A DNA stretch of 64,000 bases from Halomarina salina (GTDB lineage: Archaea > Halobacteriota > Halobacteria > Halobacteriales > Haloarculaceae). Shown here one piece after another: positions 6,176 to 42,422 of this stretch. Below the pieces are notes generated by a model. The model ran no database searches and was not told the DNA's origin. It saw nothing but the letters and a program-made list of their open reading frames with translations. Location of the stretch: positions 62,001-126,000 of the forward strand of contig NZ_JALLGW010000003.1 in the NCBI RefSeq assembly GCF_023074835.1, in the 5' to 3' direction. Position 1 is the stretch's first letter. The number at the start of each line of letters is the position of its first letter. The translations under genes and the position numbers were made by a program.

Positions 6176-6609
6176 CGCGCACCTCCGGTCTCTCCCTTGT
6201 TCGAACGCGGGACGCTGAACTTGAACGAGTTGACCGGCCGACGGCCGTCGCTGAACAGTTCGCGGAACCGGGCGACGACCTCGGTGCCGACCTCGATTTC
6301 CTCCAGGTCGGTCTCGGTGAGCAGACCGTAGACGCGCGCGGCCTCCCCCTCACCGTCCGCCTGGGGCAGGTCCACGACTGCGACCGGCTGGGGCGTCTCG
6401 ATGTCGTCGGGGAGATACTGCTGGACGACGAACGTCTCGACGGTCCCGCGTTCCGCCAGGACGACTTCCTCGAAGGTGGCGGGCGCGTCTCCACACCGCT
6501 TGCAGACGCGTTTCTCCTCTGGGTACGACACCCACCCGCAGTCCTGGCACTCGAAGCCGACGAGGCGCTGGTCCTGCCGACGGGTTCGGTGATAGCGCGG
6601 GCCGCTCAT
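6172..6609 (-). CDS. DUF35 (zinc ribbon plus OB-fold) acyl-CoA-binding scaffold protein
   Basis: 145 residues. The N-terminal rubredoxin-like zinc ribbon has Cys21, Cys24, Cys36 and Cys39 (CQDC and CKRC). An OB-fold follows from about residue 48. In methanogens such proteins bridge acetoacetyl-CoA thiolase and HMG-CoA synthase and hold CoA; in actinobacteria they pair with Ltp2. Here it overlaps the thiolase start by 4 bases and the synthase-like gene stop by 4 bases, which supports a complex of the three products. The role as scaffold is inferred from family and context. Confidence 0.9.
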   Translation of the reverse strand: MSGPRYHRTRRQDQRLVGFECQDCGWVSYPEEKRVCKRCGDAPATFEEVVLAERGTVETFVVQQYLPDDIETPQPVAVVDLPQADGEGEAARVYGLLTETDLEEIEVGTEVVARFRELFSDGRRPVNSFKFSVPRSNKGETGGAR

Positions 6610-7604
6610 GCGCCGCTCACCCCCTCGTACTCGACGGGTTCGCGGTACTCGAGGTGCCGGGCGTACGAGACGTACTCCTTCGCGTCGAGCAGTTCGGCGA
6701 CGGACAGGCCGTCGGTACGGTCCGCGCCCGGACCGGTCTCGAACAGCAGCGCGTCGGCCCCGCCGCCCCCGTAGTTGACCCCCAGGACGGACGTTCCGGG
6801 GTCGCTCGTCTCGAACGCTGCGACGAGGTCGAGCGCGAACGACGCCGTCCCGGCGTCCCCCACGGCCTCCCGATGTGACACGTGGTCGGCGTCCACCTCG
6901 CCGACCGCCGTACTGGCCATCCGGGTGTCGGGTGCGCCAGCGACGGCTCGTTCGGGCTCCGTCTCCGACCCGTCGAGGACCCGTCCGACCGCGGACTCGA
7001 CCGCCGGTGCGACGCCGTGTCGCCGTTCGAACCGGGCGTCGCCCGTCTCGGCGACCGAACCGTGTTCGCGGTGGTGTTCGACGAACCCCGACGTCTCTCG
7101 CCCGCTGGCGAGGAGCGTGGCGACCGGGCCGTCGGCGTCGGACCGCAGGAGGAGCGCTCCGGCCCCCGCTCCGGCGGTCGGGCTCCCGTCGTCGTCGGGG
7201 TCTGCCGGAAGCACGTCGACCGCGACGAGCAGGACGGTCTCGCCGCCAGTCGCGAACGCCGCTGCCGCCCCGAGCGCGTCGGTGACGGCCCGACGGCTCG
7301 ACCGAAAGTCACCCGTCCGGACGTCGCCGGTCGCGTCGAGTCGGTAGGCCACCTGTGCGGCGATTCCGTGTTCGGCGAACGGGTCGGTGACGCTCGCGGA
7401 CAACACCGCGTCGACCTCGGCCGCGTCGGCGGCAGACCGCGCGAGCGCCGTCGCTGCGGCCTCACACGCCATCGTCACGTGGTTCTCGTCGCGGGCCGGG
7501 ACGGCGCTCTCGCCGCTCGCCCGTCCGCCGTGCTGGTCGGCGACGTCGCGCCGATCGACGCGATACAGCGGGACGTAGCCGCCGTGCCCGTCGACTACGA
7601 CCAT
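6606..7604 (-). CDS. HMG-CoA synthase/3-oxoacyl synthase-like protein lacking the active-site cysteine
   Basis: About 332 residues with the thiolase-like fold of HMG-CoA synthase: an N-terminal half with a VDAVLSAS strand, then a DFRSSRRAVTDAL helix where the family has a nucleophilic cysteine (ACYAGT-like). Here two serines stand in its place. The glycine-rich C-terminal segment LGVNYGGGGADALL is kept. Only one cysteine occurs in the protein, far from the active site. It may be a non-catalytic partner or use another chemistry. The ATG at 7,604 (MVVVDGHGGYVPL) is preferred; GTG at 7,631 is an alternative. It is the first gene of the three-gene unit with the DUF35 and thiolase genes. Confidence 0.75.
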   Translation of the reverse strand: MVVVDGHGGYVPLYRVDRRDVADQHGGRASGESAVPARDENHVTMACEAAATALARSAADAAEVDAVLSASVTDPFAEHGIAAQVAYRLDATGDVRTGDFRSSRRAVTDALGAAAAFATGGETVLLVAVDVLPADPDDDGSPTAGAGAGALLLRSDADGPVATLLASGRETSGFVEHHREHGSVAETGDARFERRHGVAPAVESAVGRVLDGSETEPERAVAGAPDTRMASTAVGEVDADHVSHREAVGDAGTASFALDLVAAFETSDPGTSVLGVNYGGGGADALLFETGPGADRTDGLSVAELLDAKEYVSYARHLEYREPVEYEGVSGA

Positions 7605-8429: not shown

Positions 8430-8855
8430 TCAGCGGGGAGACGCCGACTCGTCGGGGAGCGTCGCGCTGAAGAATGGGTAGTCGGACCACCGACCCCGGT
8501 CGAGCGTTCCCGGGGCTGGACTCGGTTCGACGACCAGACGTTCGCCGATGGTGAGGTCGTCGTACGCCGCGGAAACCCGGACGAGGAGACGGACCCCGAC
8601 GTCGAGGTCGACCGTTCCGACGACCGCCGGCGCGTCGAATCCCGGCGGCGTGCGCGTGAGTTCGGTGAACGCGTGGAGCGTCCCGGTCGCATCGGTCCGC
8701 TCCCAGCCCACGTCGTCAGCGTGACAGACCGGACAGACCGGGGAGGGCGGCAGGAACGCCTCGCTACACGCCGAGCACCGCTGGACGGCGAACTCGCCGT
8801 CCGCGAGCGCCTCGAAGAACGGTGCGGCGAGTGCACCCTCACGCATCGTCGTCAC
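8430..8855 (-). CDS. DUF35 (zinc ribbon plus OB-fold) partner of the cysteine-less thiolase
   Basis: 141 residues with the zinc ribbon Cys27, Cys30, Cys41, Cys44 (CSAC and CPVC) preceded by the usual N-terminal helix FFEALADGEF, then an OB-fold (about 50-130). The start overlaps the end of the thiolase gene by 17 bases, which indicates translational coupling. By analogy with the DUF35 domain of ChsH2, which binds and activates the aldolase Ltp2, it is likely to form a complex with that thiolase-like protein. The gene ends the operon running from 11,272. Confidence 0.88.
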   Translation of the reverse strand: MTTMREGALAAPFFEALADGEFAVQRCSACSEAFLPPSPVCPVCHADDVGWERTDATGTLHAFTELTRTPPGFDAPAVVGTVDLDVGVRLLVRVSAAYDDLTIGERLVVEPSPAPGTLDRGRWSDYPFFSATLPDESASPR

Positions 8856-9996
8856 CCCCGAACACCGTCACGTTCACGCCGTCGACGTGCCCGTGCTCGG
8901 CCGACGTCAGCACCGTCGTCGCGTCCCGCACCTGGTTGGCCGCGGTCCCTCGAACCTGGCGAACCGCCTCGACGTGGTTGAGCAGCGGAGACACCATCGC
9001 CGGGTGGCCCCGACCGATACACCCTCCCGACGGGCTGATTGGCGTCGTCCCGTCGACAGCAGTCTGCCTGTCGACGGCGGCGAGCGCACCGTCTCCTCGG
9101 TCGAACAAGTCGAGTTCCTCGGAGAGAATCGCCTCCGTGTGGGGGAACGGCGCGTACAGTTCGAACACGTCGACGTCGCCCACTTCGCGGTCGGCGTCGT
9201 CGAGAGCCTCGTCCGCGGCGGCCGCCATCGCCGGGTGCCGGGCGAGCGACTCGCCGCGGACGCCGAGGTAGTGGCTCGGTGCGTGGTCGTAGCCGGTCCC
9301 AGCGATGGGAACCGGGCCGTCGGTCCGGCCGGCGTGGTCCGCACCAGTGACGACGACGGCCGCCGCACCGTCGCAGGGTGCCGGGCACTCGTACAGTCGC
9401 AACGGGCGGGCGACCGGCCGGGAGTCGAGGACGTCCGAGACGGTGGTGCCGCTCGAACGAATCGCCTCGGGGTTCGAGGCGGCGTTCTCGCGGTTCTTCA
9501 CGACGACCTCGGCGACGGCCTCCCGGGAGACGTCGTACTCGTGGCAGTAGCGCTGGAGGCTCTGCGCGTACAGTCCGGGGACGGTCGGCCCGACGGGTGA
9601 CTGGAGGTCCCGTTCGAACGTCCCGAGGATGTACGAGAGGTAGTCGTCGGTCTCGACGTGTGAGTTCCGCTCCGCGGCGAGGACGACGGCCACGTCGGTC
9701 ACACCGCGTTCGACGTCCGCGACGGCGAGTCGGAACGCGCTCCCGCCGCTCGTCCCGCCGGTGTAGGTCTCGACGTTCCGCGCGAGGTCGAGACCGAGGC
9801 GGTTCGCCAGTGCGGTCGAGAAGAACCCCTGCTCCGTCCAGGGCCGCGGCTTGGGCATGTAGAGACCGTCGACGTCGGCGAGGGCGAGGGCGGCGTCGTC
9901 GACGGCCTCCCGGAGCACTTCGGCGGCCATCTGCCACGTCGGCACGTCGTAGGTCCCGTTCGGAAGCGCGCTCACGCCGATGGCGTGTGCGGTCAT
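8839..9996 (-). CDS. Thiolase-like protein without nucleophilic cysteine (Ltp2/SCP-x-like, candidate retro-aldolase)
   Basis: 385 residues. Start taken at ATG 9,996 (MTAHAIGVSALPNG), 13 bases after the upstream stop; the ATG at 10,080 would overlap the upstream gene by 71 bases with a non-family tail. Overall fold and C-terminal GGCIGRGHPAM motif are thiolase-like, but the CATGS cysteine is absent (TGGTSGGSAFR, Ser83 region) and the HDCF histidine is replaced by Tyr281 (LYAPF). Established knowledge: Ltp2 of actinobacterial steroid degradation lacks the cysteine, works with a DUF35 protein and performs retro-aldol cleavage. Here the gene sits between a DUF35 gene and an acyl-CoA dehydrogenase, which supports the analogy. 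Confidence 0.85.
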   Translation of the reverse strand: MTAHAIGVSALPNGTYDVPTWQMAAEVLREAVDDAALALADVDGLYMPKPRPWTEQGFFSTALANRLGLDLARNVETYTGGTSGGSAFRLAVADVERGVTDVAVVLAAERNSHVETDDYLSYILGTFERDLQSPVGPTVPGLYAQSLQRYCHEYDVSREAVAEVVVKNRENAASNPEAIRSSGTTVSDVLDSRPVARPLRLYECPAPCDGAAAVVVTGADHAGRTDGPVPIAGTGYDHAPSHYLGVRGESLARHPAMAAAADEALDDADREVGDVDVFELYAPFPHTEAILSEELDLFDRGDGALAAVDRQTAVDGTTPISPSGGCIGRGHPAMVSPLLNHVEAVRQVRGTAANQVRDATTVLTSAEHGHVDGVNVTVFGGDDDA

Positions 9997-10009
9997 CGCC
10001 GTGGCCCCG

Positions 10010-11272
10010 TCATCGCTGTTCGACCCACGGCGTACCGTCCAGTTCGGCACCGACGTACTCGCCGGCGAACGCGTCGTCACGGAGTTCGTCGTAGGCGTCG
10101 TGCTGGACGATGCTGCGCATCACCTCGCTGGCTCCGCCGAGGAAGCGACCCGCACGAACGTCGCGCTGGATGCGCTCGACGGGGTAGAGCGTGGTCGTCC
10201 CGACCCCACCCATCACCTGCATCGCGGTGTCGGCCACCTCGTGGGCCGCGTCGTTCCCGAACGCCTTCGCCATCGCCCCCTCCATCCGGCCCGCCGAGAG
10301 GCCCCCCTCGTCCAGTAGCCGGGCGGCGCGGGTGTTGAGGAGGTACGCCGCGTCGAGTTTCGTCGCCGCGTCGGCGATACCGTGGTTGACCGCCTGGTAC
10401 CGCGAGAGCGGCCGCTCGTTGACGATGCGGTTGTCGGTGTAGTTCGCCGCGATCTCGAGGGCGCGCTCGGCCGCACCGAGACAGTACCGCGCGATGGTGA
10501 GGTGTTCGAGGTTCAGTTCGTTCGTGAGGTACGACCACGCCGCGCCGGGGTCGCCGACGACGTTCTCCGCGGGGACGTGAACGTCGTCGAACCGTATCCA
10601 CGCCGCGCCGGTCCCCCGGAACCCGTGCCAGTCCGAGAGGTCCATCTCGATGGAGAGACCGTCGGCGTCGCCCTCGACGAGGAGGATGGAGAGGCCGTCG
10701 CGGTCGCCCGCCTCGCCGCCGGTCCGGGCCGGGACGACGAACAGGTCGCCGTAGCGCGCGAAGTCGACGAACCGCTTCTCGCCGTTCAGCACCCACTCCT
10801 CGCCCTCGCGTCGGGCGCTGGTGTCGAGGTGAGCCATGTCGGTGCCGCTGCTCGGTTCGGTGAACGCCTGCGCGAGCACCACCTCGCCGTCGAGGAGCGG
10901 TTTCAGGTAGGTGTCCCGCACGTGGTCGCTGCCGTGTTCGTACAGCGTTCGACCGATGTGCTGGGTCAGCGACACCTGACAGGCGTGGACGATGGTGCCG
11001 GCGTACCCCAGCGCCTGTTCCGCGAGGACGGTCTCCACGACGCCCAGGCCCCCGCCGTTGTACTCCTCCGGGACCGAGATGCCGAGCAGGCCCGCGTCGC
11101 CGGCCCGCGAGACGAACTCCTGCCAGTCGGCCGCGGACTCGCGGTTCTCGTCGAGCGCGCGGAAGTGGTCCTGGTCCAGGTCGCCGACGAACACGTCGCT
11201 GCGCAGCGTCTCGACCGTCTCCTCGAGGTACTCTCGCTCCGCCTCGGTGAGTGATGTGTCTTCACCTATCAT
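10010..11272 (-). CDS. Acyl-CoA dehydrogenase
   Basis: 420 residues from ATG 11,272 (MIGEDTSLTEAERE); longer upstream extensions are not family-like. The N-terminal helical domain, the FAD/substrate segment AQAFTEPSSGTDM, the beta domain and the C-terminal QVMGGVGTTTLYPVER all fit. It should form 2-enoyl-CoA from an acyl-CoA using FAD. The usual C-terminal YEG catalytic glutamate is replaced by FLGGASE. This is the first gene of a three-gene minus-strand operon (dehydrogenase, cysteine-less thiolase, DUF35) and is divergent from the MaoC pair at 11,349, with 76 bases between starts. In steroid side-chain loci the corresponding dehydrogenases are heteromers, so a partner may exist. Confidence 0.93.
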   Translation of the reverse strand: MIGEDTSLTEAEREYLEETVETLRSDVFVGDLDQDHFRALDENRESAADWQEFVSRAGDAGLLGISVPEEYNGGGLGVVETVLAEQALGYAGTIVHACQVSLTQHIGRTLYEHGSDHVRDTYLKPLLDGEVVLAQAFTEPSSGTDMAHLDTSARREGEEWVLNGEKRFVDFARYGDLFVVPARTGGEAGDRDGLSILLVEGDADGLSIEMDLSDWHGFRGTGAAWIRFDDVHVPAENVVGDPGAAWSYLTNELNLEHLTIARYCLGAAERALEIAANYTDNRIVNERPLSRYQAVNHGIADAATKLDAAYLLNTRAARLLDEGGLSAGRMEGAMAKAFGNDAAHEVADTAMQVMGGVGTTTLYPVERIQRDVRAGRFLGGASEVMRSIVQHDAYDELRDDAFAGEYVGAELDGTPWVEQR

Positions 11273-11348
11273 GGGCCGTGGTTCTGGCAGTCGTCGGATA
11301 ACTGTTTCCCACGGTAGATTTTTGCGACGGGAGACGGGACTGTCTGGG

Positions 11349-11861
11349 GTGCCATCGAAATCGGTCGACGAGCTACAGGGCCTCGTCGGTGAGACGAGAC
11401 GGACGGTGTCGGAGTTCGTGGTCGAACGGGGCAAGGTCGCGGAGTTCGCCCGCGCCATCCACGACCCCGCCGACGTCTACCTCGACGAACGGGCCGCCGT
11501 CGCCGCCGGATACGAGACGATTCCCGCGCCGCCCACGTTCGTCCGGACGGCGTACTTCCCGCGGTACCGGCCGGACGATACCGACCAGGGACTCGGCTTC
11601 CACGAGGACCTCGGCTTCCACCAGCCGCGGACCGTCCACGGCGAGCAGCGCTACGAGTACGACCGGCCGCTCCTCCTCGGCGACGAACTGACGGGCCGGA
11701 CGACGCTGGAGGATGTCTTCGAACGGGACGGGAGACGAGGCGGAACGCTCACGTTCGCCGTCCTCCGCACGGACTTCACCGACACGGCGGGCGAGCACGT
11801 CGTCTCGGACTGGAACACCCGCATCGAGACGGGACGGGCCATCGAGGGGGAGCGCGAATGA
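11349..11861 (+). CDS. MaoC-like dehydratase, FAS1-like N-terminal type (partner subunit)
   Basis: 170 residues from GTG 11,349; no closer start fits. The hot-dog fold begins with TVSEFVVERGKVAEFARAI and continues with PPTFVRTAYFPRY. Where active MaoC hydratases have an Asp and His dyad (GDxNPxH), this protein has IHDPADVYLDE, so it is probably the non-catalytic half of a two-subunit enzyme. The stop overlaps the next MaoC gene by 4 bases (ATGA), strongly suggesting a heteromer like ChsH1-ChsH2. The hydratase would add water to the enoyl-CoA produced by the divergent dehydrogenase. Confidence 0.85.
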   Translation: MPSKSVDELQGLVGETRRTVSEFVVERGKVAEFARAIHDPADVYLDERAAVAAGYETIPAPPTFVRTAYFPRYRPDDTDQGLGFHEDLGFHQPRTVHGEQRYEYDRPLLLGDELTGRTTLEDVFERDGRRGGTLTFAVLRTDFTDTAGEHVVSDWNTRIETGRAIEGERE

Positions 11862-12256
11862 GCGACCACAGCGTCGGGGACACCGTCGAGCGGACCGTCG
11901 AGGGAATCGAGCGTGCCGACTTCGTGCGTTACGCCGGCGCGAGCGGCGACTTCAACCCCATCCACTTCGACGAACCGCACGCGCGGTCGTCGGGCTACGA
12001 GTCGCCGTTCGGCCAGGGGATGTTCACGAGCGGCGTCGCCTCGCGCGCCGTCCGCGAGGCGTTCGGCCTCCAGGGGCTCCGCGAGTTCGAGACGCGGTTC
12101 GTCTCGCAGGTCTGGCCGGGCGACGACCTGACGACGACCGTCGCGGTGACCGCCGTCGAGGAGACCGACGCCGGCGACCGTGTCGAGGCCGACGTGACGG
12201 TCACCGACCAGGACGGCGAGACGGTCGTGGAGGGGCGGGCGGTCGCCGTCGTCTGA
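11858..12256 (+). CDS. MaoC-family (R)-specific enoyl-CoA hydratase subunit
   Basis: 132 residues, a single hot-dog domain. The catalytic dyad is visible as Asp31 and His36 in SGDFNPIHFDE, followed by the usual GQGMFTSGVASRAV helix. This is the active hydratase half, coupled by a 4-base overlap with the FAS1-like half before it. Together they should convert a 2-enoyl-CoA into a 3-hydroxyacyl-CoA, which is the substrate type needed by the neighbouring cysteine-less thiolase/DUF35 pair. The next gene is convergent, 35 bases away. Confidence 0.92.
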   Translation: MSDHSVGDTVERTVEGIERADFVRYAGASGDFNPIHFDEPHARSSGYESPFGQGMFTSGVASRAVREAFGLQGLREFETRFVSQVWPGDDLTTTVAVTAVEETDAGDRVEADVTVTDQDGETVVEGRAVAVV

Positions 12257-12291: not shown

Positions 12292-13500
12292 CTAGCGCTG
12301 CTCGAGGACCCCCGCTTCGACGAGGCGGTCGAGCGTCGCGTCGTCGTACCCCACCTCTTCGAGGACCTCGCGCGAGTGCTCGCCGAGCAGCGGCGCGTGG
12401 CGGCGGATGGACGGGGGCGTCTCCGAGAGGTCGAGCGGCGTGTCCGTGAGCGTCAGTTCCCCGTACCGGGGGTGGTCGACGTCGACGAACGTCCCCCGTT
12501 CCGCGAGGTGGTCCAGTTCGGCCGCCTCGCGGATGTCGTTGACGTGTGCGGCCGGGATGCCGGCGGCGTTCATCGCCTCGACGGCCTCGTCGGCGGGTTG
12601 CTCGACGAGCCAGCCCTCGAAGATGCGCGACAGTTTCGACGCGTCCTCCAGTCGCCCCTCCTCTGTCCGATAGCGCTCCTCCTCGCGCAGGTCCTCGCGG
12701 CCGAGCAGGTCGCAGTACGCCTCCCAGATGCGGTCGGAGTAGAGGAGCAGGGCGACGACGACGTAGCCGTCGGCGGCCTCGGCTGCCCCGTACAGCATGT
12801 CGGGCTGGCTGAACGTGTTCCGGCCGCCCGCGGCGGGCACCTCGTCCAGGTTGTTGTAGTACTCGAAGGCGGCGTCGACGTTGTGGACGAGCGATTCGAG
12901 CAACGAGACGTCGACCTTCTGACCCTCACCGCCCCGGTCGACGTGGCGGAGCGCGGCGATGGCGCTGAGTGCCGCGCTGTACGCCGCGTAGACGTCCCCC
13001 AGCGACGACTGGGAGCGAATCGGCGGCCCCTCGTCGAGGCCGTCGCCCATCAGGCTCGTGAACCCGGAGACGTGCTGGACGACGGTGTCCATCCCCGGAT
13101 TCTTCGCCAGCGGCCCCGTCTCGCCGAACCCCGTCACGTGGACGTAGACGAGGTCCTCGTTGACCTCGCTGAGCGTCTCGTAGTCCGCCCCGAGGCGCTC
13201 GGCGACGCCGGGGGGCCAGTTCTGGACGAACACGTCCGCGACCTCGACGAGGTCGTGCAGGCTCTCCTGTCCGGCGTCGGCCTTCAGGTCGAGGCTCAGC
13301 GACCGCTTGTTCCGGTTGTACAGTTCGAAACCGGGGTTGAACGGTTCGCCGTCGAGCTGTCGACGGTCCGTGCGGAACAGTTCGCCGCGGTGGGGTTCGA
13401 CCTTGACGACGTCGGCCCCGAGGTCACCGAGGAACGTCCCGGTCAGCGGTCCGGCGATGACCTGTCCGCACTCGACGACGCGTACGTCCGAGAGTGGCAT
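12292..13500 (-). CDS. Family III (CaiB/BaiF) CoA-transferase
   Basis: 402 residues with the characteristic interlaced-dimer fold. Family landmarks are GADVVKVE (28-35), YNRNKRSLSLDL (61-72), VFVQNWPPGVAERL and Asp169 in SLGDVYAA, at the place of the catalytic aspartate of formyl-CoA transferase. It should move CoA between an organic acid and a donor acyl-CoA such as succinyl-CoA. It is convergent with the MaoC pair and divergent from the ABC transporter genes at 13,615, so it may supply the activated substrate for imported acids. A TATA-like ACCGGCTTAATC lies near 13,520-13,532. Confidence 0.93.
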   Translation of the reverse strand: MPLSDVRVVECGQVIAGPLTGTFLGDLGADVVKVEPHRGELFRTDRRQLDGEPFNPGFELYNRNKRSLSLDLKADAGQESLHDLVEVADVFVQNWPPGVAERLGADYETLSEVNEDLVYVHVTGFGETGPLAKNPGMDTVVQHVSGFTSLMGDGLDEGPPIRSQSSLGDVYAAYSAALSAIAALRHVDRGGEGQKVDVSLLESLVHNVDAAFEYYNNLDEVPAAGGRNTFSQPDMLYGAAEAADGYVVVALLLYSDRIWEAYCDLLGREDLREEERYRTEEGRLEDASKLSRIFEGWLVEQPADEAVEAMNAAGIPAAHVNDIREAAELDHLAERGTFVDVDHPRYGELTLTDTPLDLSETPPSIRRHAPLLGEHSREVLEEVGYDDATLDRLVEAGVLEQR

Positions 13501-21597: not shown

Positions 21598-22353
21598 TCA
21601 GTCCTCGACGTAGGTCATCCGCTCGTCGACCGTCTGCCAGACGTCCATACCGACGGGCGACTCACGCTCCTCGATGACCTCCGCGACGAGGCCGGCGGCG
21701 CGACTGACGATGGCGAACCCCCGTGCGGCCTCCGGGGCCAGGCCGAGGTCGGACGCGAGTGCGCCGATGGCGCCGGTGACGTTGATGGGGAGGTCACGGC
21801 CCGCCTCGTCCTCGAACGCCCCCTGGAGGTCGCGGAGGATGGCGACGTGGTCGCCGGTGACGTCGGCGTCGTCTGCGAGGTCGAAGAGGCGCTGGGCGCG
21901 CGGGTCGACGGGGTCGAACTCGGGGTGGCCGATGCCAGAGAACCGCTTCTCGCTCTCGCGGTAGGCGGCGACGAGTTCCGCCGTCGCGGCCTCGCGGTCG
22001 TCGGCCGCAGCGACGGCCTGGAGGTCGGTCGCACACTGCTCCATCGCTCCCGCGAACCGGGACCCGACGCCGAGCAGACCGCTCGCCACCGCTCCCTGCG
22101 TCGACGACGGTTCCGAGAGCAGGGTGAGGCGCGTGGCGATGGCGTGCGGGGTCGTGCCGTGGACCATCAGCGAGGAGAGCATCGCGTTGATCAGTCGCCG
22201 TTCGGCGACCGTGGGCGTCTCGCCGCTCAGGAGGTGGACGAACGCGGACCCGAAGTCCATCTCTCCCATTATCTCGGTCGTGAGGTCCTTCCCGCGAACG
22301 GTCACCGATTCCTCGTCGTGCGTCGAGAGTCGCGTCTCGTAGCTGTCGGGCAT
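21598..22353 (-). CDS. Citryl-CoA lyase-like protein (citrate synthase fold, short form)
   Basis: 251 residues from ATG 22,353 (MPDSYETRLSTH). It corresponds to the C-terminal lyase module of the citrate synthase/ATP-citrate lyase superfamily and lacks the large N-terminal part of citrate synthase. Visible segments are MGEMDFGSAFVHLLSGETPT near the N-terminus, VHGTTPHAIATRL, GIGHPEFDPVDPRAQRLF with the active-site histidine, and PINVTGAIGALASDLGL. Known relatives cleave citryl-CoA to acetyl-CoA and oxaloacetate or act on related branched acyl-CoA. Here it stands alone on the minus strand among acyl-CoA genes, so it may split a tricarboxylic or branched intermediate. Confidence 0.82.
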   Translation of the reverse strand: MPDSYETRLSTHDEESVTVRGKDLTTEIMGEMDFGSAFVHLLSGETPTVAERRLINAMLSSLMVHGTTPHAIATRLTLLSEPSSTQGAVASGLLGVGSRFAGAMEQCATDLQAVAAADDREAATAELVAAYRESEKRFSGIGHPEFDPVDPRAQRLFDLADDADVTGDHVAILRDLQGAFEDEAGRDLPINVTGAIGALASDLGLAPEAARGFAIVSRAAGLVAEVIEERESPVGMDVWQTVDERMTYVED

Positions 22354-35139: not shown

Positions 35140-35601
35140 TCAGTCCAGTCCGAACACCGGGACGGACACGTCCTCGCGTTCGGTGGGAACGAACTCGACG
35201 CCGACGCTCGCGCCCACCTCGACGTCGTCCGGGTCGCAGTCGACCAGATTCGTCATCACCCGCGGCCCCTCGACGAGTTCGACGTACGCGACGACCAGCG
35301 GCAGGTCCGCCTCCGGCCACCCCTCCATCCGCTCGGCGACGGAGTAGGTGTAGACGGTCCCCTCACCGGACGCCTCGGTCCACTCCGTCTCCGCGAAGCA
35401 GTCCGGGCACCGCGCCCGCGGGTAGTGGACGACGAGGCCGCAGTCGGGACAGCGACTGAGCAGCAACACCCCGTCGCTCGCGGCCGCCCAGTACCGTTCG
35501 CTCTCGGGTGTCACGTCGGGCAGCGGTCGCGGCTCCCATGTCTCCGGTGCGTCGCTCATCTCGTCCGACCCGTCGCGCTCGTCGTCCGACCCGTCGCTCA
35601 T
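35140..35601 (-). CDS. DUF35 (zinc ribbon plus OB-fold) partner of the second cysteine-less thiolase
   Basis: 153 residues from ATG 35,601; the first 20 residues are acidic and variable, and ATG 35,559 is also possible. The helix SERYWAAASDGVLLLSR leads to a zinc ribbon with Cys51, Cys54, Cys65, Cys68 (CPDC twice), then an OB-fold with GEGTVYTYSVAERM and VMTNLVDCDPDDVEVG. It overlaps the thiolase-like gene by 4 bases. The predicted role is to bind and complete that protein, as the DUF35 domain of ChsH2 does for Ltp2. Confidence 0.88.
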   Translation of the reverse strand: MSDGSDDERDGSDEMSDAPETWEPRPLPDVTPESERYWAAASDGVLLLSRCPDCGLVVHYPRARCPDCFAETEWTEASGEGTVYTYSVAERMEGWPEADLPLVVAYVELVEGPRVMTNLVDCDPDDVEVGASVGVEFVPTEREDVSVPVFGLD

Positions 35602-36767
35602 GTCCGGCCCTCCGCGCCGAGGACGAGCGTCGCCGCCCCGTGTCTGGTGGCGATGGAGCCGCCCGTGCCGTGGGCGAGTGCGACGTCGGCGTCGACCTGC
35701 ACCTCCTCGTTGGCCTCGCCGCGCACCTGCCGGACGGCCTCGATGACCTTCGTCATCCCGCCGCGGTTCCCGGGGTGGTTCGAGCAGAGGCCCCCGCCGT
35801 CGGTGTTGAACGGCAGGTCGCCGTCCGCTCTGAGGGTGCCGCCCTCGACGAACCGCCCGCCCTCGCCCTTCTCGCAGAATCCCAGGTCCTCCAGCGCTTC
35901 GAGGACGGTGATGGTGAACGAGTCGTAGATGGAGGCGTAGTCGACGTGTTCGGGGCCGAGACCGGCCTCCGCGAACGCCCGCTCGCCGGACTGGACCGCG
36001 CCGGTCGTCGTCACGTCGACGCGCCCCGCGTCGTGGTGTTTCGGGGCCTCGCCGTGGCCGAGCACCTCGACGCACTCGCGGTCGAGGTCGGCACGAACGT
36101 CCTCGCTGACGACCAGCAACGCACCGCCGCCGTCGGAGATGACACAGCAGTCCAGCAGGTGGAGGGGGTCGGCGACGACGGGCGAGTCGAGGACGTCGTC
36201 GACCGAGACGGGGTCCTGGTACATCGCGTCGTCGTTGTACTGCGCGTGGTAGGAGGCGGCGGCGCGAACCTCCGCCAACTGGGCGCTCGTCGTCCCGTAC
36301 TCGTGCATGTGGCGACGTGCCGTCATCCCGTACATCGTCACGTTCGTCGTGCCGTAGATGCGCTCGTAGCTGTCCTGGACGGTCCGGAGCTTCCGGGTTC
36401 CCGACCCGGTGGCCTGCCCCCGCGAGCGTGGCCGCCCGGCGAGCGTGACGAGCGCGACGTCGCACTTCCCGTCGCGGATCGCGCTCGCCGCGTGCCCGAC
36501 GTGGGCGACGTACGACGACCCGCCGTAGTCCGTCGTGTCCGCGTACGACAGGTCGAGGCCGAGGTAGTCGGCTGCCATCAGCGGCGTCAGCGAGTGCTCC
36601 ATCTCCGGGACGCCCGCCGTGAAGTACGCGTCGACCGCGTCCTTCGAGAGGCCGGCGTCGTCCAGTGCCCCCGCCGCCACGTCGGCGGTCAGTTGCATGG
36701 TCGACCGGTCCGGAGCCTCCCGCGTCGGGTGTTCGAACGCACCAGCGACGTACACGGACTCGGCCAT
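35598..36767 (-). CDS. Thiolase-like protein without nucleophilic cysteine (Ltp2/SCP-x-like, candidate retro-aldolase)
   Basis: 389 residues from ATG 36,767, which overlaps the stop of the small ORF before it. The segment that should hold CATGS reads DTTDYGGSSYVAHVGHA (78-94), so the cysteine is missing. The middle motif is IYDSFTITVLE with Tyr281 in place of the histidine of HDCF. The C-terminal GGGLCSNHPGNRGG (324-337) is kept. This combination is that of the steroid side-chain aldolase Ltp2 rather than of thiolases. With the DUF35, MaoC, dehydrogenase and CoA-transferase genes of the same operon it gives a second retro-aldolase-like module. It is clearly diverged from the copy at 8,839. 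Confidence 0.87.
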   Translation of the reverse strand: MAESVYVAGAFEHPTREAPDRSTMQLTADVAAGALDDAGLSKDAVDAYFTAGVPEMEHSLTPLMAADYLGLDLSYADTTDYGGSSYVAHVGHAASAIRDGKCDVALVTLAGRPRSRGQATGSGTRKLRTVQDSYERIYGTTNVTMYGMTARRHMHEYGTTSAQLAEVRAAASYHAQYNDDAMYQDPVSVDDVLDSPVVADPLHLLDCCVISDGGGALLVVSEDVRADLDRECVEVLGHGEAPKHHDAGRVDVTTTGAVQSGERAFAEAGLGPEHVDYASIYDSFTITVLEALEDLGFCEKGEGGRFVEGGTLRADGDLPFNTDGGGLCSNHPGNRGGMTKVIEAVRQVRGEANEEVQVDADVALAHGTGGSIATRHGAATLVLGAEGRT

Positions 36768-36913
36768 CAGACCACACCTCCCGACCCGTCCCTCGTGGAG
36801 CTGTCGACGACTACCGTCGCGTCGGGGTAGTCGAGTTCTCTCGCCGTCGTGCGACCGGTGCCGTGGCCGTCGACGGTGGCGATACACCGCTTCTCGTCCG
36901 GAATGTCACTCAT
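36767..36913 (-). CDS. Small ORF of 48 residues inside the second retro-aldolase-like operon
   Basis: ATG 36,913 lies 12 bases after the CoA-transferase stop, and the TGA stop (36,769-36,767) overlaps the ATG of the thiolase-like gene. The product begins MSDIPDEKRCIATVDGHGTG and has one cysteine, a Gly-rich turn and a hydrophobic strand. No family is recognised. Tight packing on both sides supports translation; it may be a small subunit, a coupling ORF or the remnant of a larger gene. Confidence 0.45.
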   Translation of the reverse strand: MSDIPDEKRCIATVDGHGTGRTTARELDYPDATVVVDSSTRDGSGGVV

Positions 36914-36925
36914 GAGTCGTAGCTC

Positions 36926-38404
36926 TCAGTCTCTGTCGGCGTGCCAGTCGAGCGCAGTTTCGATGTCGTGTGGGATGTGGCCGCCGCGTGAGCGGCCGCG
37001 GTTCAGGTAGTCGGTCAGGTCGTCCCGGTAGTCGGGGTGGGCGCACTCCTCGACGAGCGCACGGGCGGTCTCCCTGGGAGCGTTCCCCCGGAGGTCCGCG
37101 ACCCCCTGTTCGGTGACGACCACGTCGACGTCGTGTTCGGTGTGGTCGACGTGCGGGACCATCGGGACGATGCGAGAGATGTCGCCACCGGCCGCCGTCG
37201 ACGGCAGGGCGACGACGGCCAGCGGCGAGTGGCGGTTGAAGTCGCCGCTGCCGCCGACGCCGTTCATCGCCCGCGTCCCGTCGACGTGCGTCGAGTTGAC
37301 GTGCCCGAACAGGTCGAGTTCGAGCGCGCTGTTGACGGCGACGACGCCGAACCGGTCGATGAGCGCCCCGCTGTTCGAGAGGTCGGCGGGCCGGAGGACG
37401 ACGTCCTCGGCGTAGCGCTCGGCGTTCTCGAACAGACGGTCCTGGCCCTCGGTCGAGAGCGCGAGCGACGTCGCGCTCGCGGCGGTCAGTTCGCCCTCGT
37501 CGAGCAGGTCGAGCAGGCCGTCCTGGATGACCTCGCCGAAGTAGATCAGGTCCCGGTCCCCGAGGTCGGTGTCGCCGAGCGCCCCCATCAGGGCGTTGCC
37601 GAGGCTGCCGACCCCGAACTGGATGCGCAGCGACTCCTCGAACAGCGGCGAGCGCTCGACCTCGCGTTCGACGAACTCGCGGAGGTTCGCGGCGATGGTC
37701 CGGTCGTCGTCGGTCGGGTCGCGGAACGAGTACGGCTGGTCGCGCCGGTCGGTCTCGACCACCGCATCGAGTTTCTCGGGGTCGAACGTGACGCGCTCGC
37801 CCCCGATTCGCCCACCGGGGTCGGTGAGCGGAATCGGGTCGCGGTTCGGCGGCGTCCCCGGGCGGTAGACGTCGTGGAACGCGGCGAGTTCGGTCGGGAC
37901 CGTCTCGTTGACCTCGACGACGAGGCGGTCGGCGCTCTCGACGAACGCGGGCGTCTGACCGATGCTCGTCGAGGGAATCAGCCAGTCCGCGCCGACCGCC
38001 AGCGCCTCGACGACGGCGACGCGCTCTCCCTCTCCGGTGAGACCGCCGAACTGCACTTCGTCGCCGAGCGTGCTGACGTCTCGGTCGTGGAACGCGATAC
38101 GGCCGTCGTTGACCGCCGCCCGCGCTGGCGGTCGCGCCTGATACGGAAACCGGCGGGCGATTGCGTCGGCCTCGACGAGGGCGACGTCTATCTCCTCGCC
38201 GACGCTCCCGCCGCTGACGACGGTCAGGGCGAGGTCACGCCCAGAGTCGGCCAGCGCGAGCGGGACCGCCTTCGGGTAGCCGACGCTCCCGAACCCGCTG
38301 ACCAGCAGCGTCGCGTCGTCCTCGACGTCGGCGGCCACGTCCGCGGCGCTTCGGACGGGGAGGTCGCCCTGTAAGCGGGCTGTGGTCGAACGCTCGCCGC
38401 CCAT
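36926..38404 (-). CDS. Acetyl-CoA hydrolase/transferase family CoA-transferase (Cat1/AarC-like)
   Basis: 492 residues from ATG 38,404, whose last base is shared with the stop of the MaoC gene (TGATG type). The two Rossmann-like CoA-transferase halves are visible: LLVSGFGSVGYPKAVPLAL near the N-terminus and QFGVGSLGNALMGAL with YFGEVIQDGLLDLLDEG near the middle, the latter glutamate being the likely CoA-carrying residue. The end has VTEQGVADLRGNAPRETA, typical of acetyl-CoA hydrolases/succinyl-CoA:acetate transferases. It may recycle CoA from or to the acids made by the module. Confidence 0.9.
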   Translation of the reverse strand: MGGERSTTARLQGDLPVRSAADVAADVEDDATLLVSGFGSVGYPKAVPLALADSGRDLALTVVSGGSVGEEIDVALVEADAIARRFPYQARPPARAAVNDGRIAFHDRDVSTLGDEVQFGGLTGEGERVAVVEALAVGADWLIPSTSIGQTPAFVESADRLVVEVNETVPTELAAFHDVYRPGTPPNRDPIPLTDPGGRIGGERVTFDPEKLDAVVETDRRDQPYSFRDPTDDDRTIAANLREFVEREVERSPLFEESLRIQFGVGSLGNALMGALGDTDLGDRDLIYFGEVIQDGLLDLLDEGELTAASATSLALSTEGQDRLFENAERYAEDVVLRPADLSNSGALIDRFGVVAVNSALELDLFGHVNSTHVDGTRAMNGVGGSGDFNRHSPLAVVALPSTAAGGDISRIVPMVPHVDHTEHDVDVVVTEQGVADLRGNAPRETARALVEECAHPDYRDDLTDYLNRGRSRGGHIPHDIETALDWHADRD

Positions 38405-38946
38405 CAGTCGTCCTCCGGTTGCGTGCCGACGCCCGCTGGCCACCCCGGCGGCTTGGCGGCCGAGGGTTCGGCGTACTCGCGTTTGAGTACCATCGGCGTC
38501 CGCTCCAGCGAGAGCACCAGGTCGTCGTCCTGATTGTACGCCCGGAGTTCGGTCGTGACGATGCCGACGTGGTCTCGGCTCTCCGTTTCGCGCTTCGAAA
38601 CCACCTCCGACTCGGAGAACAGCGTGTCGCCGTGGAAGACGGGCGCGTGATGGCGGATGTCGTCGTAGCCCAGGTTCGCCGTCGCGTTCATCGAGACGTC
38701 GATGACGCTCATCCCGACGACGAGGGCGATGACGAACGTCCCGTTGACGAGTCGTTCGCCGAACTCCGTCTCCGCGGCGTACGCCTCGTTGAAGTGCATC
38801 GGGTTGACGTTCATCGTGACGTTGGTGAACCAGACGTCGTCCGTCTCGGTCACCGTCCGCCCGTACGGGTGCTTGTAGACGTCGCCGATCTCGAAGTCTT
38901 CGTAGAACCGTCCCTGCCAGCCGTCTTTGAGTGTGCGTTCGCTCAT
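38404..38946 (-). CDS. MaoC-family enoyl-CoA hydratase
   Basis: 180 residues from ATG 38,946. The hot-dog domain has the hydratase helix region TNVTMNVNPMHFNEAYA with His51; the usual catalytic aspartate is Asn46, a variation seen in the mesaconyl-CoA hydratase-like branch. GERLVNGTFVIALVVGMSV follows. It would hydrate the enoyl-CoA formed by the dehydrogenase 5 bases upstream. The single subunit here replaces the two-subunit hydratase of the first module. Confidence 0.92.
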   Translation of the reverse strand: MSERTLKDGWQGRFYEDFEIGDVYKHPYGRTVTETDDVWFTNVTMNVNPMHFNEAYAAETEFGERLVNGTFVIALVVGMSVIDVSMNATANLGYDDIRHHAPVFHGDTLFSESEVVSKRETESRDHVGIVTTELRAYNQDDDLVLSLERTPMVLKREYAEPSAAKPPGWPAGVGTQPEDD

Positions 38947-38951
38947 CGTAA

Positions 38952-40169
38952 TCAGTAGCTCCGTGGGAGGTCGAGGACGTTCTCCCCGATGAAGTTCAGT
39001 GCGAGCTGTTGCGTGATGGGGACCAGCCTGGTCAGCCGAGCCTCGCGGAAGTAGCGCTCGACGTCGTACTCGCGGGCGATGCCGAACCCGCCGTGGGTCT
39101 GGACGGCGGCGTCGGCGGCCTCGAACGCGGCGTTCGCGGCGAGGAACTTCGACATGTTCGCCCGCGCGCCGACGTCCTTCGCGTCGTCGTCGCCGACGGC
39201 GGCGCTCGCCGCGCTGTACACCATCTGCTTGGCGGCCTGGACGTGCGCGTGTGCCTCGGCCAGCGGGTGCTGAATCGCCTGGTTCGAGCCGATGGGTCGA
39301 CCGAACACCTCGCGTTCGTTCGCGTACCCGACGCCCGCCTCGATGGCCGCCTCGCCGAGACCGACGCACTCGGCGGCGATGACCAGACGCTCCTCGTTGA
39401 GACCGTCGAGCATCTGGTAGAACCCCTCGCCCTCCTCGCCGATGGCCGCCGACACCGGGAGCCGGAGGTCCTCGAAGAACAGCTCGTAGGAGTGGACGAA
39501 GTTACTCGCCGTCTTGTCGATCTGCTTGAGCTCCAGTCCGCCCTGGTCGTACGCCTCCTCCAGATCGACGAGGAACATCGTCAGGCCTCTCGTCCGCTTC
39601 TCGACCTCGTCGCGCGGCGTGGTGCGAGCCATCAGAATGAGGTAGTCGCTGGCGTCGACGCGGGAGATCCATATCTTCTGGCCGTTGACGAGGTACTCGT
39701 CCTCGTCGGCGTCGCCCGCGCCCCGTTCGGCGCGCGTCTCGATGGCCGTCGAGTCGGAGCCGGCGTTCGGCTCGGTGAGTCCGAACGCCTGGATGGACGT
39801 CTCGCCGCGGGCCACCTCGGGGACGATCTCCTCTTTCATCTGCTCGCTCCCGTACTCGACGAGCGGGACGGAGTTGTAGATGGCACCGTGGACCGCCTGT
39901 GCGGCACTGAACCCGCCGCCGGAGGCCGCTATCTCCTCCATCATGACGACGACCTCCTCGGTCGTCATGCCCGCCCCGCCGTACTCCTCGGGGAGCAACG
40001 CGCCGAACCAGCCGTGCTCTCCGAGCGTGTCGACGAACTCGCTCGGGTACTCTCCTGCGGCGTCCTTCTCGCGCCAGTAGGCCGCGTCGTACTCGTCGCA
40101 GACGTCTCGTATCGACTCCCGGACCAGTTGTTGCTGGTTCGAGAGTTCGACCGTGTCAGTACTCACCAT
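38952..40169 (-). CDS. Acyl-CoA dehydrogenase
   Basis: 405 residues. Markers: QAFGLTEPNAGSDSTAIETR for FAD and substrate, DKTASNFVHSYELFFEDLRLP in the beta domain, and QTHGGFGIAREYDVERYFRE in the last domain. The C-terminus (ITQQLALNFIGENVLDLPRSY) lacks a clear YEG glutamate. First gene of the second retro-aldolase-like operon (dehydrogenase, MaoC, CoA-transferase, small ORF, thiolase-like, DUF35). Its start lies 50 bases from the stop of the PrpD-like gene, which is on the same strand upstream. Confidence 0.93.
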   Translation of the reverse strand: MVSTDTVELSNQQQLVRESIRDVCDEYDAAYWREKDAAGEYPSEFVDTLGEHGWFGALLPEEYGGAGMTTEEVVVMMEEIAASGGGFSAAQAVHGAIYNSVPLVEYGSEQMKEEIVPEVARGETSIQAFGLTEPNAGSDSTAIETRAERGAGDADEDEYLVNGQKIWISRVDASDYLILMARTTPRDEVEKRTRGLTMFLVDLEEAYDQGGLELKQIDKTASNFVHSYELFFEDLRLPVSAAIGEEGEGFYQMLDGLNEERLVIAAECVGLGEAAIEAGVGYANEREVFGRPIGSNQAIQHPLAEAHAHVQAAKQMVYSAASAAVGDDDAKDVGARANMSKFLAANAAFEAADAAVQTHGGFGIAREYDVERYFREARLTRLVPITQQLALNFIGENVLDLPRSY

Positions 40170-40219
40170 TGAGTGTGGGAGGAATCAGCTACCTGCAGTA
40201 TTAAAATTACGGGTGGGCG

Positions 40220-41554
40220 TTACTCGGCGAGCGCGTCGGCGACGTCCGGATGGTCGTCGAGGGTCAGGAGGGTGTCCGCGAGTCGGTCCACGGCGGTGTC
40301 GGGGACGGCACGGCCTGCGCACTCCGCGAACTTCTCACGGAGTTCTGACTCGGTGAGCGGGTCGCCGTGGGTACCCGGCGGGTTCTCCTGCCGGCGCTCG
40401 TACGTCCCGTCGGCCGTCTCGATACGTACGACCGCTTCGTGAGAGTCGTAGTGGAACGACTCGTCGACGCTGAACTCGACTCTCTCGCGAACCCGCTGGA
40501 CGGTGGCATCGTCGATAGCGTCGTCCTCGAACGTGGCGAGACCGACCCGCTCGCGGACCGCGCCGCTGGCGACGGCGTACTCCATCGAGAACTTCGCCTC
40601 CAGCCCCGTTTCGGGGTCGACGTGGTGGAGTGCGTCGGCGGCCCCCTGGGCGGCGCGGACCTGGATGCGCTCGACGTCCTCCGGGTCGACTCCGTGCTCC
40701 TCCACCAGCGCCTGGGTCGCGGCGATGCTGGTGTGCGTGAAGTAGCAACAGGGGTAGTACTTGACGTGGATGCCCTCCGTCTCCAGCGCCCACTCGTCGG
40801 GGTCGAAGGCGAACTCGTCCCGTTCTTCGGGGCCGTAGAGGTCCCAGAACCCCCGGTCGCCGCTGACAGCGGTCGCGTCGGCGGTGAACCCGTTCTCCGC
40901 GAGCAGCGCCGCCGTGACGCCCGAGCGCGCACAGAGGCCGGCGTGGAGGGGTTTCGTCATCGACCCGAAGTTCCGCTTCAGCCCCGCTGGCGTCGACGCG
41001 GCCACGTTCAGCGCGTGGCGCGTCTCCTCGGTGTCGAGGTCCAGCAACGAGGCGACGGCCGCCGCCGCGCCGAACGCGCCGAACGTGGCGGTGGCGTGCC
41101 AGCCTGCCTCGTAGTGGTCGGGACTGATGGGGTCGGCGAGCGCGCACTCCACTTCGAAGCCAGCCGCATACGCGGCGACGAGCGCTTCGCCGGACGCCCC
41201 CCGCTCCCCGGCGAGTGCGAAGAGCGCCGGGACGAGCGTGACGCTCGGGTGGCCGTCCATCGCCCACGAGAGGTCGTCGTAGTCGAGCGCGTGGCTCGCG
41301 GTACCCGTTCGCAGGGCTCGCTCGGCGGCGCTCGCGGACGTGGTGAGGCCGAGCGTCGCGGCGACGTCGCCGTCGTCTGGCCGACTGTCCAACGCCTCGA
41401 ACGTCGTCTCCCCGGCGCCCTCGACTGCGCCGGCGAGCGTGACGCCCGCCGTGTCGAGGAACGCCCGGCGGACGGTCTCGCGGGCGTCGTCTGGTACCTC
41501 GGCGAACGTGAGCGTGGCCGCGAACTCGGCGAGTTCGGTCTCGGGTGAAGCCAT
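40220..41554 (-). CDS. MmgE/PrpD family protein
   Basis: 444 residues from ATG 41,554; ATG 41,563 is an alternative, and the TATA element ACGTTTATC favours the former. The all-helical N-terminal domain has GTASHALDYDDLSWAMDGHPS and the second domain KYYPCCYFTHTSIAATQAL. The family includes 2-methylcitrate dehydratase, cis-aconitate decarboxylase and cyclic-acid lyases, so it could act on a tricarboxylic intermediate that the citryl-CoA lyase-like protein might later cleave. It is divergent from an IclR gene 94 bases away, which probably controls it. Confidence 0.9.
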   Translation of the reverse strand: MASPETELAEFAATLTFAEVPDDARETVRRAFLDTAGVTLAGAVEGAGETTFEALDSRPDDGDVAATLGLTTSASAAERALRTGTASHALDYDDLSWAMDGHPSVTLVPALFALAGERGASGEALVAAYAAGFEVECALADPISPDHYEAGWHATATFGAFGAAAAVASLLDLDTEETRHALNVAASTPAGLKRNFGSMTKPLHAGLCARSGVTAALLAENGFTADATAVSGDRGFWDLYGPEERDEFAFDPDEWALETEGIHVKYYPCCYFTHTSIAATQALVEEHGVDPEDVERIQVRAAQGAADALHHVDPETGLEAKFSMEYAVASGAVRERVGLATFEDDAIDDATVQRVRERVEFSVDESFHYDSHEAVVRIETADGTYERRQENPPGTHGDPLTESELREKFAECAGRAVPDTAVDRLADTLLTLDDHPDVADALAE

Positions 41555-41577
41555 ACCGGACATCGACGAGGAGAGCG

Positions 41578-41624
41578 GATAAACGTTGACCAGACACGCG
41601 TGTTCGACGATACGGGACTTTAAG
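41578..41624. promoter_or_regulatory. Divergent promoter region with palindrome between PrpD-like and IclR genes
   Basis: For the minus gene a TATA-like GTTTATC lies at 41,579-41,586. A perfect ACACGCGTGT palindrome (41,594-41,603) sits midway. For the plus gene TTTAAG (41,619-41,624) lies 25 bases before ATG 41,649. One regulator bound at the palindrome could control both directions. Confidence 0.5.
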
Positions 41625-41648
41625 TGTAGAGCGTCCGTCGGTGTGCAC

Positions 41649-42422
41649 ATGAACGACGACACGCGGCCGGGGGGCGTCGACACGGTCAGCTCCGCCGAGA
41701 CGCTGTTCGAAATCGTCGAATACATCTCGGAGGCGGAGGGACAGACCGTCTCGGAGATCGCGTCGAACCTCGACTACGCGAAGAGTACCGTCCACCGACA
41801 CCTCACGACGCTCGAACAGTGTGGGTACGTCGTGAGAGACGGCGGCTACTACGTCGGCCTGCGCTTTCTCGAACTCGGTCAGCAGGCGCGCAACCGTCAC
41901 CGCGCGTACCGCCTCGCTCGCGACAAGGTGGACGAACTCGCCGCCGAGACCGACGAGCGCGCCCAGTTCATCGTCGAGGAGCACGGGGAGGCGGTCTACA
42001 TCCACCGGACGTTCGGCGCGCACGCCGTTCGAACCGACCCCGGCATCGGGAAACGCATCCCGCTGCACGCTACGTCCGCGGGAAAGGCGATTCTCGCCTC
42101 GATGACCGACGAACGGCGGTCCCGCATTATCGAACAGACCGCGTTCGACGCCATCACGGGGGAGACCATCACCGACCCAGAGGAACTCGACGAGGAACTC
42201 GCTCGCATCACGGAACGCGGGTACGCCTTCAATCGCCAGGAGAACGTGGACGGCCTCCACGCCGTGGGCGTCCCGGTGACCGGGCCCGACGATACCATCA
42301 TCGGCGCGCTCAGCGTGTCCGGTCCCAGCCACCGCCTCACCGGTGACTGGTTCGAGAACGAACTCCCCGCGCTGCTGCTCGGGGCGGCGAACGAACTCGA
42401 ACTCAACATCGCGTACGCGTAG
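41649..42422 (+). CDS. IclR family transcriptional regulator
   Basis: 257 residues from ATG 41,649; the TATA spacing and family N-terminus exclude the longer frame from 41,586. The winged helix contains GQTVSEIASNLDYAKSTVH (about 35-55). The effector domain shows GKRIPLHATSAGKAILASM and VSGPSHRLTGDW. It is related to the regulator at 20,710, particularly in the C-terminal half. Likely targets are the divergent PrpD-like gene and perhaps the operon beyond it. It marks the last gene of the high-GC catabolic district. Confidence 0.93.
   Translation: MNDDTRPGGVDTVSSAETLFEIVEYISEAEGQTVSEIASNLDYAKSTVHRHLTTLEQCGYVVRDGGYYVGLRFLELGQQARNRHRAYRLARDKVDELAAETDERAQFIVEEHGEAVYIHRTFGAHAVRTDPGIGKRIPLHATSAGKAILASMTDERRSRIIEQTAFDAITGETITDPEELDEELARITERGYAFNRQENVDGLHAVGVPVTGPDDTIIGALSVSGPSHRLTGDWFENELPALLLGAANELELNIAYA

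Follow-up and report, generated by a model that had tools for sequence, protein, structure and literature searches.

A cysteine-less thiolase-like protein and its conserved DUF35 partner, a candidate retro-aldolase pair in haloarchaea

Introduction

Retro-aldolases built on the thiolase fold have been proven mainly for steroid side chains. The class cleaves tertiary 3-hydroxyacyl-coenzyme A (CoA) esters, and citramalyl-CoA is a compound of this kind. In its closest described members, Ltp2-ChsH2(DUF35) of the igr locus (6ok1) and the bile-acid aldolase Sal-Shy(DUF35) (9myr), a thiolase-like protein without the nucleophilic cysteine is partnered by a DUF35 protein, and for Ltp2 dehydrogenase and MaoC steps come before. 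In TcLtp2 and CtSal, both proven aldolases, a tyrosine serves as base and removes the beta-hydroxyl proton (PMC12329534). Here we analyze a 64,000-nucleotide stretch of Halomarina salina DNA (the window), part of a 4.46-Mb haloarchaeal genome, in which the gene for such a cysteine-less protein, THLa (8839..9996, minus strand), overlaps by 8 bp the gene for a DUF35 protein, DUF35a (8430..8846, minus strand). A sequence-only reading had taken these genes, together with a neighboring acyl-CoA dehydrogenase and a two-subunit MaoC hydratase, for an archaeal version of the igr gene set, perhaps acting on an isoprenoid or other branched acyl-CoA.

Two further systems bear on the locus. Benzoylsuccinyl-CoA thiolase BbsAB (7pxp) resembles it as a thiolase-DUF35 pair in a branched dicarboxylate pathway, and differs in that BbsB has a cysteine (SACSAG) and an HD motif. 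In Pseudomonas and Cupriavidus, the families of the ict-ich-mcd-mmgE-ccl cluster degrade itaconate and methylsuccinate with a CitE-type citramalyl-CoA lyase as the final enzyme (PMC12290011, PMC9875883), a pathway that requires the cleavage of a tertiary 3-hydroxyacyl-CoA (PMC12290011). We found no paper on haloarchaeal retro-aldolases or on haloarchaeal itaconate clusters in a literature search that went without most subscription journals.

Results

THLa and DUF35a make up the conserved part of the locus. Coordinates, strands and Pfam matches confirmed the five genes of 8430-12256 as the sequence-only reading had described them, and their codon usage is haloarchaeal. Of 340 genomes sampled in the class, 17 in addition to the source genome have a THLa ortholog (54-75% identity); Halorientalis, Salinadaptatus, Halalkalicoccus, Natronorubrum and Natronolimnohabitans are among these, and a clean identity gap separates the orthologs from paralogs (~35% or less). 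In 21 of the 21 haloarchaeal loci measured, all with both genes called, DUF35a lies directly 3' of THLa on the same strand at a spacing of -8 to +3 bp, and the pair is therefore the conserved unit. DUF35a is a zinc-ribbon/OB-fold partner protein (Pfam zf-ChsH2 and OB_ChsH2_C) with the C4 motif CSACSEAFLPPSPVCPVC, which nearly all orthologs share; these are features of the ChsH2 type, and its top phmmer match is the DUF35 part of ChsH2 itself (6ok1_B, E=1.5e-12). A conserved haloarchaeal block of dehydrogenase, MaoC pair, thiolase-like protein and DUF35 was ruled out, as only THLa-DUF35a is constant. The real unit is this pair, and dehydrogenase and MaoC are recruited case by case.

THLa matches Thiolase_N and Thiolase_C_1 of Pfam. 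At its nucleophile site, every aligned haloarchaeal ortholog has TGG[TS]S in place of xxCAS, bearing out the cysteine loss first noticed in THLa, and none carries the hallmark of SCP2-type and acetoacetyl-CoA thiolases, a nucleophilic cysteine in a CASG motif. Cys326 of SGGC was ruled out as a catalytic cysteine, since a Halorientalis ortholog (L069) has proline there. All cysteine-bearing proteins compared have HDxF, and both cysteine-less clades have a tyrosine at the position of that histidine. In THLa this is Tyr281 of YAPFPH; the motif reads YAPF, YTPF or YVPF in all orthologs, YAPC in bacterial relatives and YD[HCS] in Ltp2, Sal and THLc, a second thiolase-like protein of the window. The histidine of GRGHP (His331) is also invariant and aligns with the acid Tyr344 of TcLtp2. 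Both residues and the motifs surrounding them are strictly conserved.

In maximum-likelihood trees, the haloarchaeal THLa proteins and five proteobacterial homologs form a clade of their own (100/99) outside the Ltp2/Sal clade. That second clade (100/98-99) holds TcLtp2, CtSal, Sphaerobacter 4u4e, THLc and a Natrialbaceae group, and a third holds the cysteine thiolases, BbsB and ST0096 of Sulfolobus (4yzo). The trees are unrooted. Relations within the second clade are weakly resolved, since two or three of the branches of Protein Data Bank (PDB) entries are long and only the aligned parts of those entries were used. The expectation that THLa would not group with active cysteine thiolases held, and both the tree and the active-site motifs rule it out as an Ltp2 ortholog.

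THLa shares with Ltp2 the missing cysteine, the tyrosine at the HDxF histidine position and a C4-zinc DUF35 partner. It differs in its separate clade, in YAPF versus YDHF and in a histidine where Ltp2 has the acid Tyr344; in addition, the DUF35 of the window is unfused, there is one dehydrogenase gene and there is no steroid context. With Sal it has in common the cysteine-free nucleophile site, the tyrosine at the base position and the DUF35 partner. However, Sal has YDCY with an essential Cys304, a C3H1 zinc site and a DUF35-MaoC fusion, none of which the THLa system has, and at the acid position Sal uses Gln352 with Cys304 in contrast to the invariant GRGHP histidine. The uncharacterized thiolase-like protein 4u4e of Sphaerobacter and THLc resemble THLa in being cysteine-less, with a tyrosine at the base position and an HPG-type histidine, but these two fall inside the Ltp2/Sal clade and THLa outside it.

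An AlphaFold2 model of the THLa monomer, built from a 29-sequence alignment, has a thiolase fold (predicted local distance difference test (pLDDT) 88, predicted template modeling score (pTM) 0.91); an earlier model from 14 sequences reached pLDDT 69, and its fold search was uninformative. The model superposes on 7yvy, 6esq, 6ok1 and 9myr with TM scores of 0.83-0.90. Cysteine thiolases and Ltp2/Sal both match it, and the fold therefore does not separate aldolase from thiolase.

The five bacterial relatives, from Cupriavidus necator N-1, C. metallidurans CH34, Roseomonas gilardii, Achromobacter and Pacificitalea, are 60-66% alike among themselves and ~35% identical to THLa, and each is followed by a DUF35 gene with the C4 zinc motif. 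The order in Roseomonas is MaoC, MaoC, dehydrogenase, thiolase-like protein, DUF35, with MmgE/PrpD and electron transfer flavoprotein genes; in Achromobacter and Pacificitalea it is transporter, thiolase-like protein, DUF35, ADP-forming CoA ligase, MaoC, dehydrogenase. Dicarboxylate or tricarboxylate transporters belong to the bacterial clusters, two of which have MmgE/PrpD-like genes. Their dehydrogenases have the helix-G glutamate and have lost that of medium-chain acyl-CoA dehydrogenase (MCAD), and their MaoC proteins all carry the catalytic Asp/His dyad (SGDxNPxH, or SGDYNALH in Pacificitalea). An inert MaoC partner is therefore not part of the design. Judged by gene content and motifs, the bacterial clusters provide the best independent support for a predicted sequence of dehydrogenation, hydration and cleavage.

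In the window, the dehydrogenase beside the pair is ACADa (10010..11269, minus strand; Pfam acyl-CoA dehydrogenase domains). Alignment and motif show a glutamate at the helix-G position (LNLEHL), as in the bacterial enzymes, and a glycine at the MCAD position, where those enzymes too have lost the glutamate. From general family knowledge, we take these to be the two possible glutamate sites, helix G being that of isovaleryl-CoA dehydrogenase (IVD) and long-chain acyl-CoA dehydrogenase, and the helix-G glutamate is presumably catalytic. In two Halomarina plasmids, ACADa (69-70%) lies ~1 kb or ~5 kb from THLa. Co-occurrence was counted over 341 genomes, the source included, with statistics that ignore kinship or correct for it only roughly: all four genomes with ACADa also have THLa (p=5.5e-6 ignoring kinship).

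The hydratase pair consists of MaoC-a (11349..11861, plus strand; start 11349 or 11388; Pfam FAS1_DH_region) and MaoC-b (11858..12256, plus strand; Pfam MaoC_dehydratas). As the sequence-only reading had observed, only the second subunit has the Asp/His dyad (SGDFNPIH); MaoC-a has HDPADVY, with tyrosine at the histidine position, and the same change is reported for the non-catalytic ChsH2 (PMC11321319). In library searches, the two subunits match HadA and HadB best. Among all haloarchaeal and bacterial loci read, the MaoC pair adjoins THLa only in this window, and the other THLa loci of the sampled genomes have neither it nor ACADa within ~9 kb.

The window's true member of the Ltp2/Sal clade, as alignments and tree place it, is a second cysteine-less pair at 35140-36767, which the sequence-only reading had omitted: THLc (35598..36767, minus strand; YDSF, NHPG) and its adjoining putative partner DUF35c (35140..35601, minus strand; Pfam). 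Next to it lie, in an operon-like run, genes for a ScpC-type (succinyl-CoA:acetate) CoA-transferase (36926..38404, minus strand; NF053853, 524 bits, cut-off 500) and a MaoC hydratase related to itaconyl-CoA hydratase RipB/Ich and mesaconyl-CoA hydratase (38404..38946, minus strand; NF038241, PF19315). There follow ACADd, an acyl-CoA dehydrogenase of the helix-G glutamate type by profile match and motif (38952..40169, minus strand), an MmgE/PrpD family protein (40220..41554, minus strand; PF03972 and PF19305) and an IclR-family regulator that recurs beside these genes (41649..42422, plus strand; Pfam). Four families of the ict-ich-mcd-mmgE-ccl cluster, those of the CoA transferase, the MaoC hydratase, the dehydrogenase and MmgE/PrpD, are represented at 36926-41554, but the hydratase scores 171.6 bits against the Ich model NF038241, below its cut-off of 340, and the transferase fits the ScpC model. 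Such families likewise surround THLa or THLc in several other haloarchaea. In contrast to the bacterial cluster, 35140-42422 has no gene for a CitE-type citramalyl-CoA lyase, and a thiolase-like/DUF35 pair stands in its place; HpcH/HpaI-family genes are absent from the window and present elsewhere in the genome.

The arrangement of THLc/DUF35c beside itaconate-type families recurs in two other genomes (L182, L183) and in part in three more (L189, L191, L194). THLa and THLc co-occur in 10 genomes where ~1 is expected, and in 7 of these they share a contig at a distance of ~35 kb or less. At the Halorientalis-like locus L069, ~30 THLc residues and a partial DUF35c remain at 7184-7550, between ACADd and CaiB1-THLa, apparently as a deletion remnant.

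Around THLa elsewhere in haloarchaea, we repeatedly found a RipB/Ich-like MaoC (81-84% to that at 38404), a ScpC-type transferase, MmgE/PrpD, ACADa or ACADd, a citryl-CoA-lyase-like gene, CaiB and IclR. Three loci show the itaconate-type set (L075, L106, L118), and L069 has part of it, without transferase and hydratase. In the window, CaiB1, a class III CoA-transferase (12292..13500, minus strand), has succinyl-CoA:mesaconate CoA-transferase as its top NCBIfam model, at 253.8 bits against a cut-off of 700, and its ortholog (81%) adjoins THLa in L069. The citryl-CoA-lyase-like protein (21598..22353, minus strand; NCBIfam PRK06224.1-5, 277.7 bits, cut-off 193) is a member of the recurrent set at L075 and L118. 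The RipB/Ich-like hydratase is present in 18 of 18 THLa genomes and in 108 of 341 overall (p=3.6e-10 ignoring kinship); by genus, the counts are 8/8 and 44/81 (p=0.0055). With organic-acid transporters, CoA transferases, MmgE/PrpD and RipB-like MaoC recurring as neighbors, a steroid or long isoprenoid substrate is therefore unsupported. A search of the genome for HsaA, the one steroid-ring gene searched for, gave nothing over cut-off. A small branched, perhaps dicarboxylic, acyl-CoA is the likelier substrate to be predicted from these neighborhoods.

Several other arrangements were seen. The two ends of the contig that contains the window (261,172 bases) are identical over 18,080 bases, and the contig therefore represents a circular replicon of 243,092 bp, a plasmid. 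At 5012-7604 of the window, a cysteine-bearing thiolase (ENACATG), also left out of the sequence-only reading, pairs with a DUF35 (5012-6609) and is joined by a 3-hydroxy-3-methylglutaryl-CoA (HMG-CoA) synthase-like gene, with 4-bp overlaps; the trio resembles the archaeal acetoacetyl-CoA thiolase/DUF35/HMG-CoA synthase complex and differs in sitting in a catabolic island. An enoyl-CoA hydratase at 22472-23246 is split into open reading frames in different frames (22472-22927 and 22947-23246), possibly a frameshift or a disrupted gene. Elsewhere, a DRE-TIM lyase/synthase-like gene of the isopropylmalate/citramalate synthase family (L203, 5986-7092) lies beside a RipB-like cluster without a thiolase-like gene and is perhaps another cleavage enzyme. 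Three Natrialbaceae loci (L100, L101, L102; at ~6.5-9 kb) combine another, 4u4e-like cysteine-less thiolase and a DUF35 with a fused double MaoC, a short-chain dehydrogenase/reductase and an acyl-CoA ligase, and come structurally closer to the steroid hydratase-aldolase set than the locus in the window does.

Discussion

On balance, the motifs and gene order lead us to regard THLa and DUF35a as probably a single enzyme, a DUF35-scaffolded, cysteine-less retro-aldolase of the SCP2-thiolase fold with a branched 3-hydroxyacyl-CoA as substrate. We infer the retro-aldol chemistry, the formation of a complex, the roles of the residues and the substrate. An acid would be taken up and activated with CoA by a CaiB or ScpC-type transferase, or in bacteria by the ADP-forming ligase; an IVD-type dehydrogenase, here ACADa, would form the enoyl-CoA, and a MaoC hydratase would put water on the branched beta-carbon. 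Candidates for that hydratase are the MaoC pair next door and the RipB/Ich-like enzyme at 38404, of which comparative data favor the second. THLa would then act on a 3-hydroxyacyl-CoA whose beta-carbon cannot be oxidized to a ketone and split it into an acyl-CoA of shorter chain and a ketone or oxo-acid. Tyr281, the counterpart of TcLtp2 Tyr294 and CtSal Tyr302, would by homology take the proton of the beta-hydroxyl, and His331 or another conserved residue may give a proton back to the enolate.

Several observations weigh against this reading. ST0096 has lost the cysteine and keeps HD, which shows that an aldolase cannot be deduced from a missing cysteine by itself; a claim that every cysteine-less relative has the tyrosine fails on this protein. 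The solved folds nearest to the THLa model by E-value are cysteine thiolases, with Ltp2 and Sal slightly behind. THLa lacks YDHF and the acid tyrosine of TcLtp2 as well as YDCY of CtSal, and its clade has no member of known activity. Most Natrialbaceae have the pair in the company of peptidase, gamma-glutamyltranspeptidase-like, MFS and TRAP genes, usually without a dehydrogenase or hydratase nearby. MaoC-a also co-occurs with THLa, in 15 of the 18 THLa genomes, although unlinked outside this window, and the MaoC pair may therefore still take part.

A clade of no known activity and the highly varied Natrialbaceae neighborhoods would also suit a THLa that is a cysteine-independent decarboxylase, acyl-CoA hydrolase, acyltransferase or silent subunit, with the nearby beta-oxidation-type genes serving another route. 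Related folds do carry out acyl transfer or thiolysis (PhlC, BbsB), and TbSLP weakly decarboxylates malonyl-CoA (PMC12329534). But BbsB retains its cysteine, the strict conservation of Tyr281, His331 and their motifs argues for catalysis, and dehydrogenase and hydratase neighbors recur in bacteria and Halomarina, and we consider such a role unlikely. A full igr-like module, in which ACADa, MaoC-a/b, THLa and DUF35a would together process a bulky isoprenoid or steroid-like acyl-CoA and the inert MaoC would make room for it, strikes us as more improbable still. Gene content, local clustering, the ChsH2-like change in MaoC-a and the breadth of MaoC-a orthologs among THLa genomes speak for it; the MaoC pair is nevertheless a neighbor of THLa nowhere else, the bacterial MaoC proteins are fully active, HadA/HadB are the best matches of the pair, and no gene of the genome scores over cut-off as HsaA-like. 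The likeness to igr is one of chemistry and not of membership, as five defining features fail: THLa has neither YDHF nor the second catalytic tyrosine and falls outside the Ltp2/Sal clade, one dehydrogenase gene stands where igr has ChsE1-ChsE2, and DUF35 is separate where ChsH2 has it fused to a non-catalytic MaoC. A catalytic and a non-catalytic MaoC subunit are indeed present, but as a HadA/HadB-like pair that is no conserved partner, and the recurrent neighbors lend no support to a steroid or long isoprenoid substrate. What survives of the retro-aldol module is the cysteine loss, the tyrosine at the Ltp2/Sal base position, the coupling to a C4-zinc DUF35, the helix-G glutamate of ACADa and the Roseomonas, Achromobacter and Pacificitalea clusters.

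Within the retro-aldolase reading of the pair, a narrower form is possible, though we hold it only tentatively: a lyase of the citramalyl-CoA type whose partners would be the RipB/Ich-like hydratase, the ScpC-type transferase, MmgE/PrpD and the dehydrogenase. It would place the pair in a haloarchaeal itaconate/methylsuccinate-type pathway, either the one of the second island in this window or a related one for a larger alkylsuccinate. Such a pathway needs the cleavage of a tertiary 3-hydroxyacyl-CoA, and the constant company of the RipB-like hydratase, the joint loci and the transporters and MmgE/PrpD-like genes of the bacterial clusters agree with it. Yet most genomes with a RipB-like hydratase lack THLa, many Natrialbaceae THLa loci lack these neighbors, the operon in this window holds THLc and not THLa, and the CoA transferase would equally fit plain succinate/acetate transfer. 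That THLa or THLc acts on citramalyl-CoA or its homologs is thus something we infer, with many Natrialbaceae loci having other neighbors. It is a speculative and rather unlikely extension that haloarchaea use both clades on tertiary 3-hydroxy dicarboxylyl-CoAs in itaconate/methylsuccinate-type degradation, instead of a CitE-type lyase or for larger alkyl homologs.

The THLa-DUF35a pair is a compact, directly testable two-gene enzyme candidate, and it might supply the cleavage step that is missing from haloarchaeal clusters similar to those of bacterial itaconate and methylsuccinate degradation. If both clades do act on such dicarboxylyl-CoAs, the enzyme class, described for the side chains of steroids and ibuprofen, would also take in small organic acids, the archaea and a new active-site design of tyrosine and histidine. 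Even by itself, a further cysteine-less clade that haloarchaea have in common with Proteobacteria, marked by a distinct active-site signature and a constant DUF35 partner, suggests a chemistry broader than steroid catabolism.

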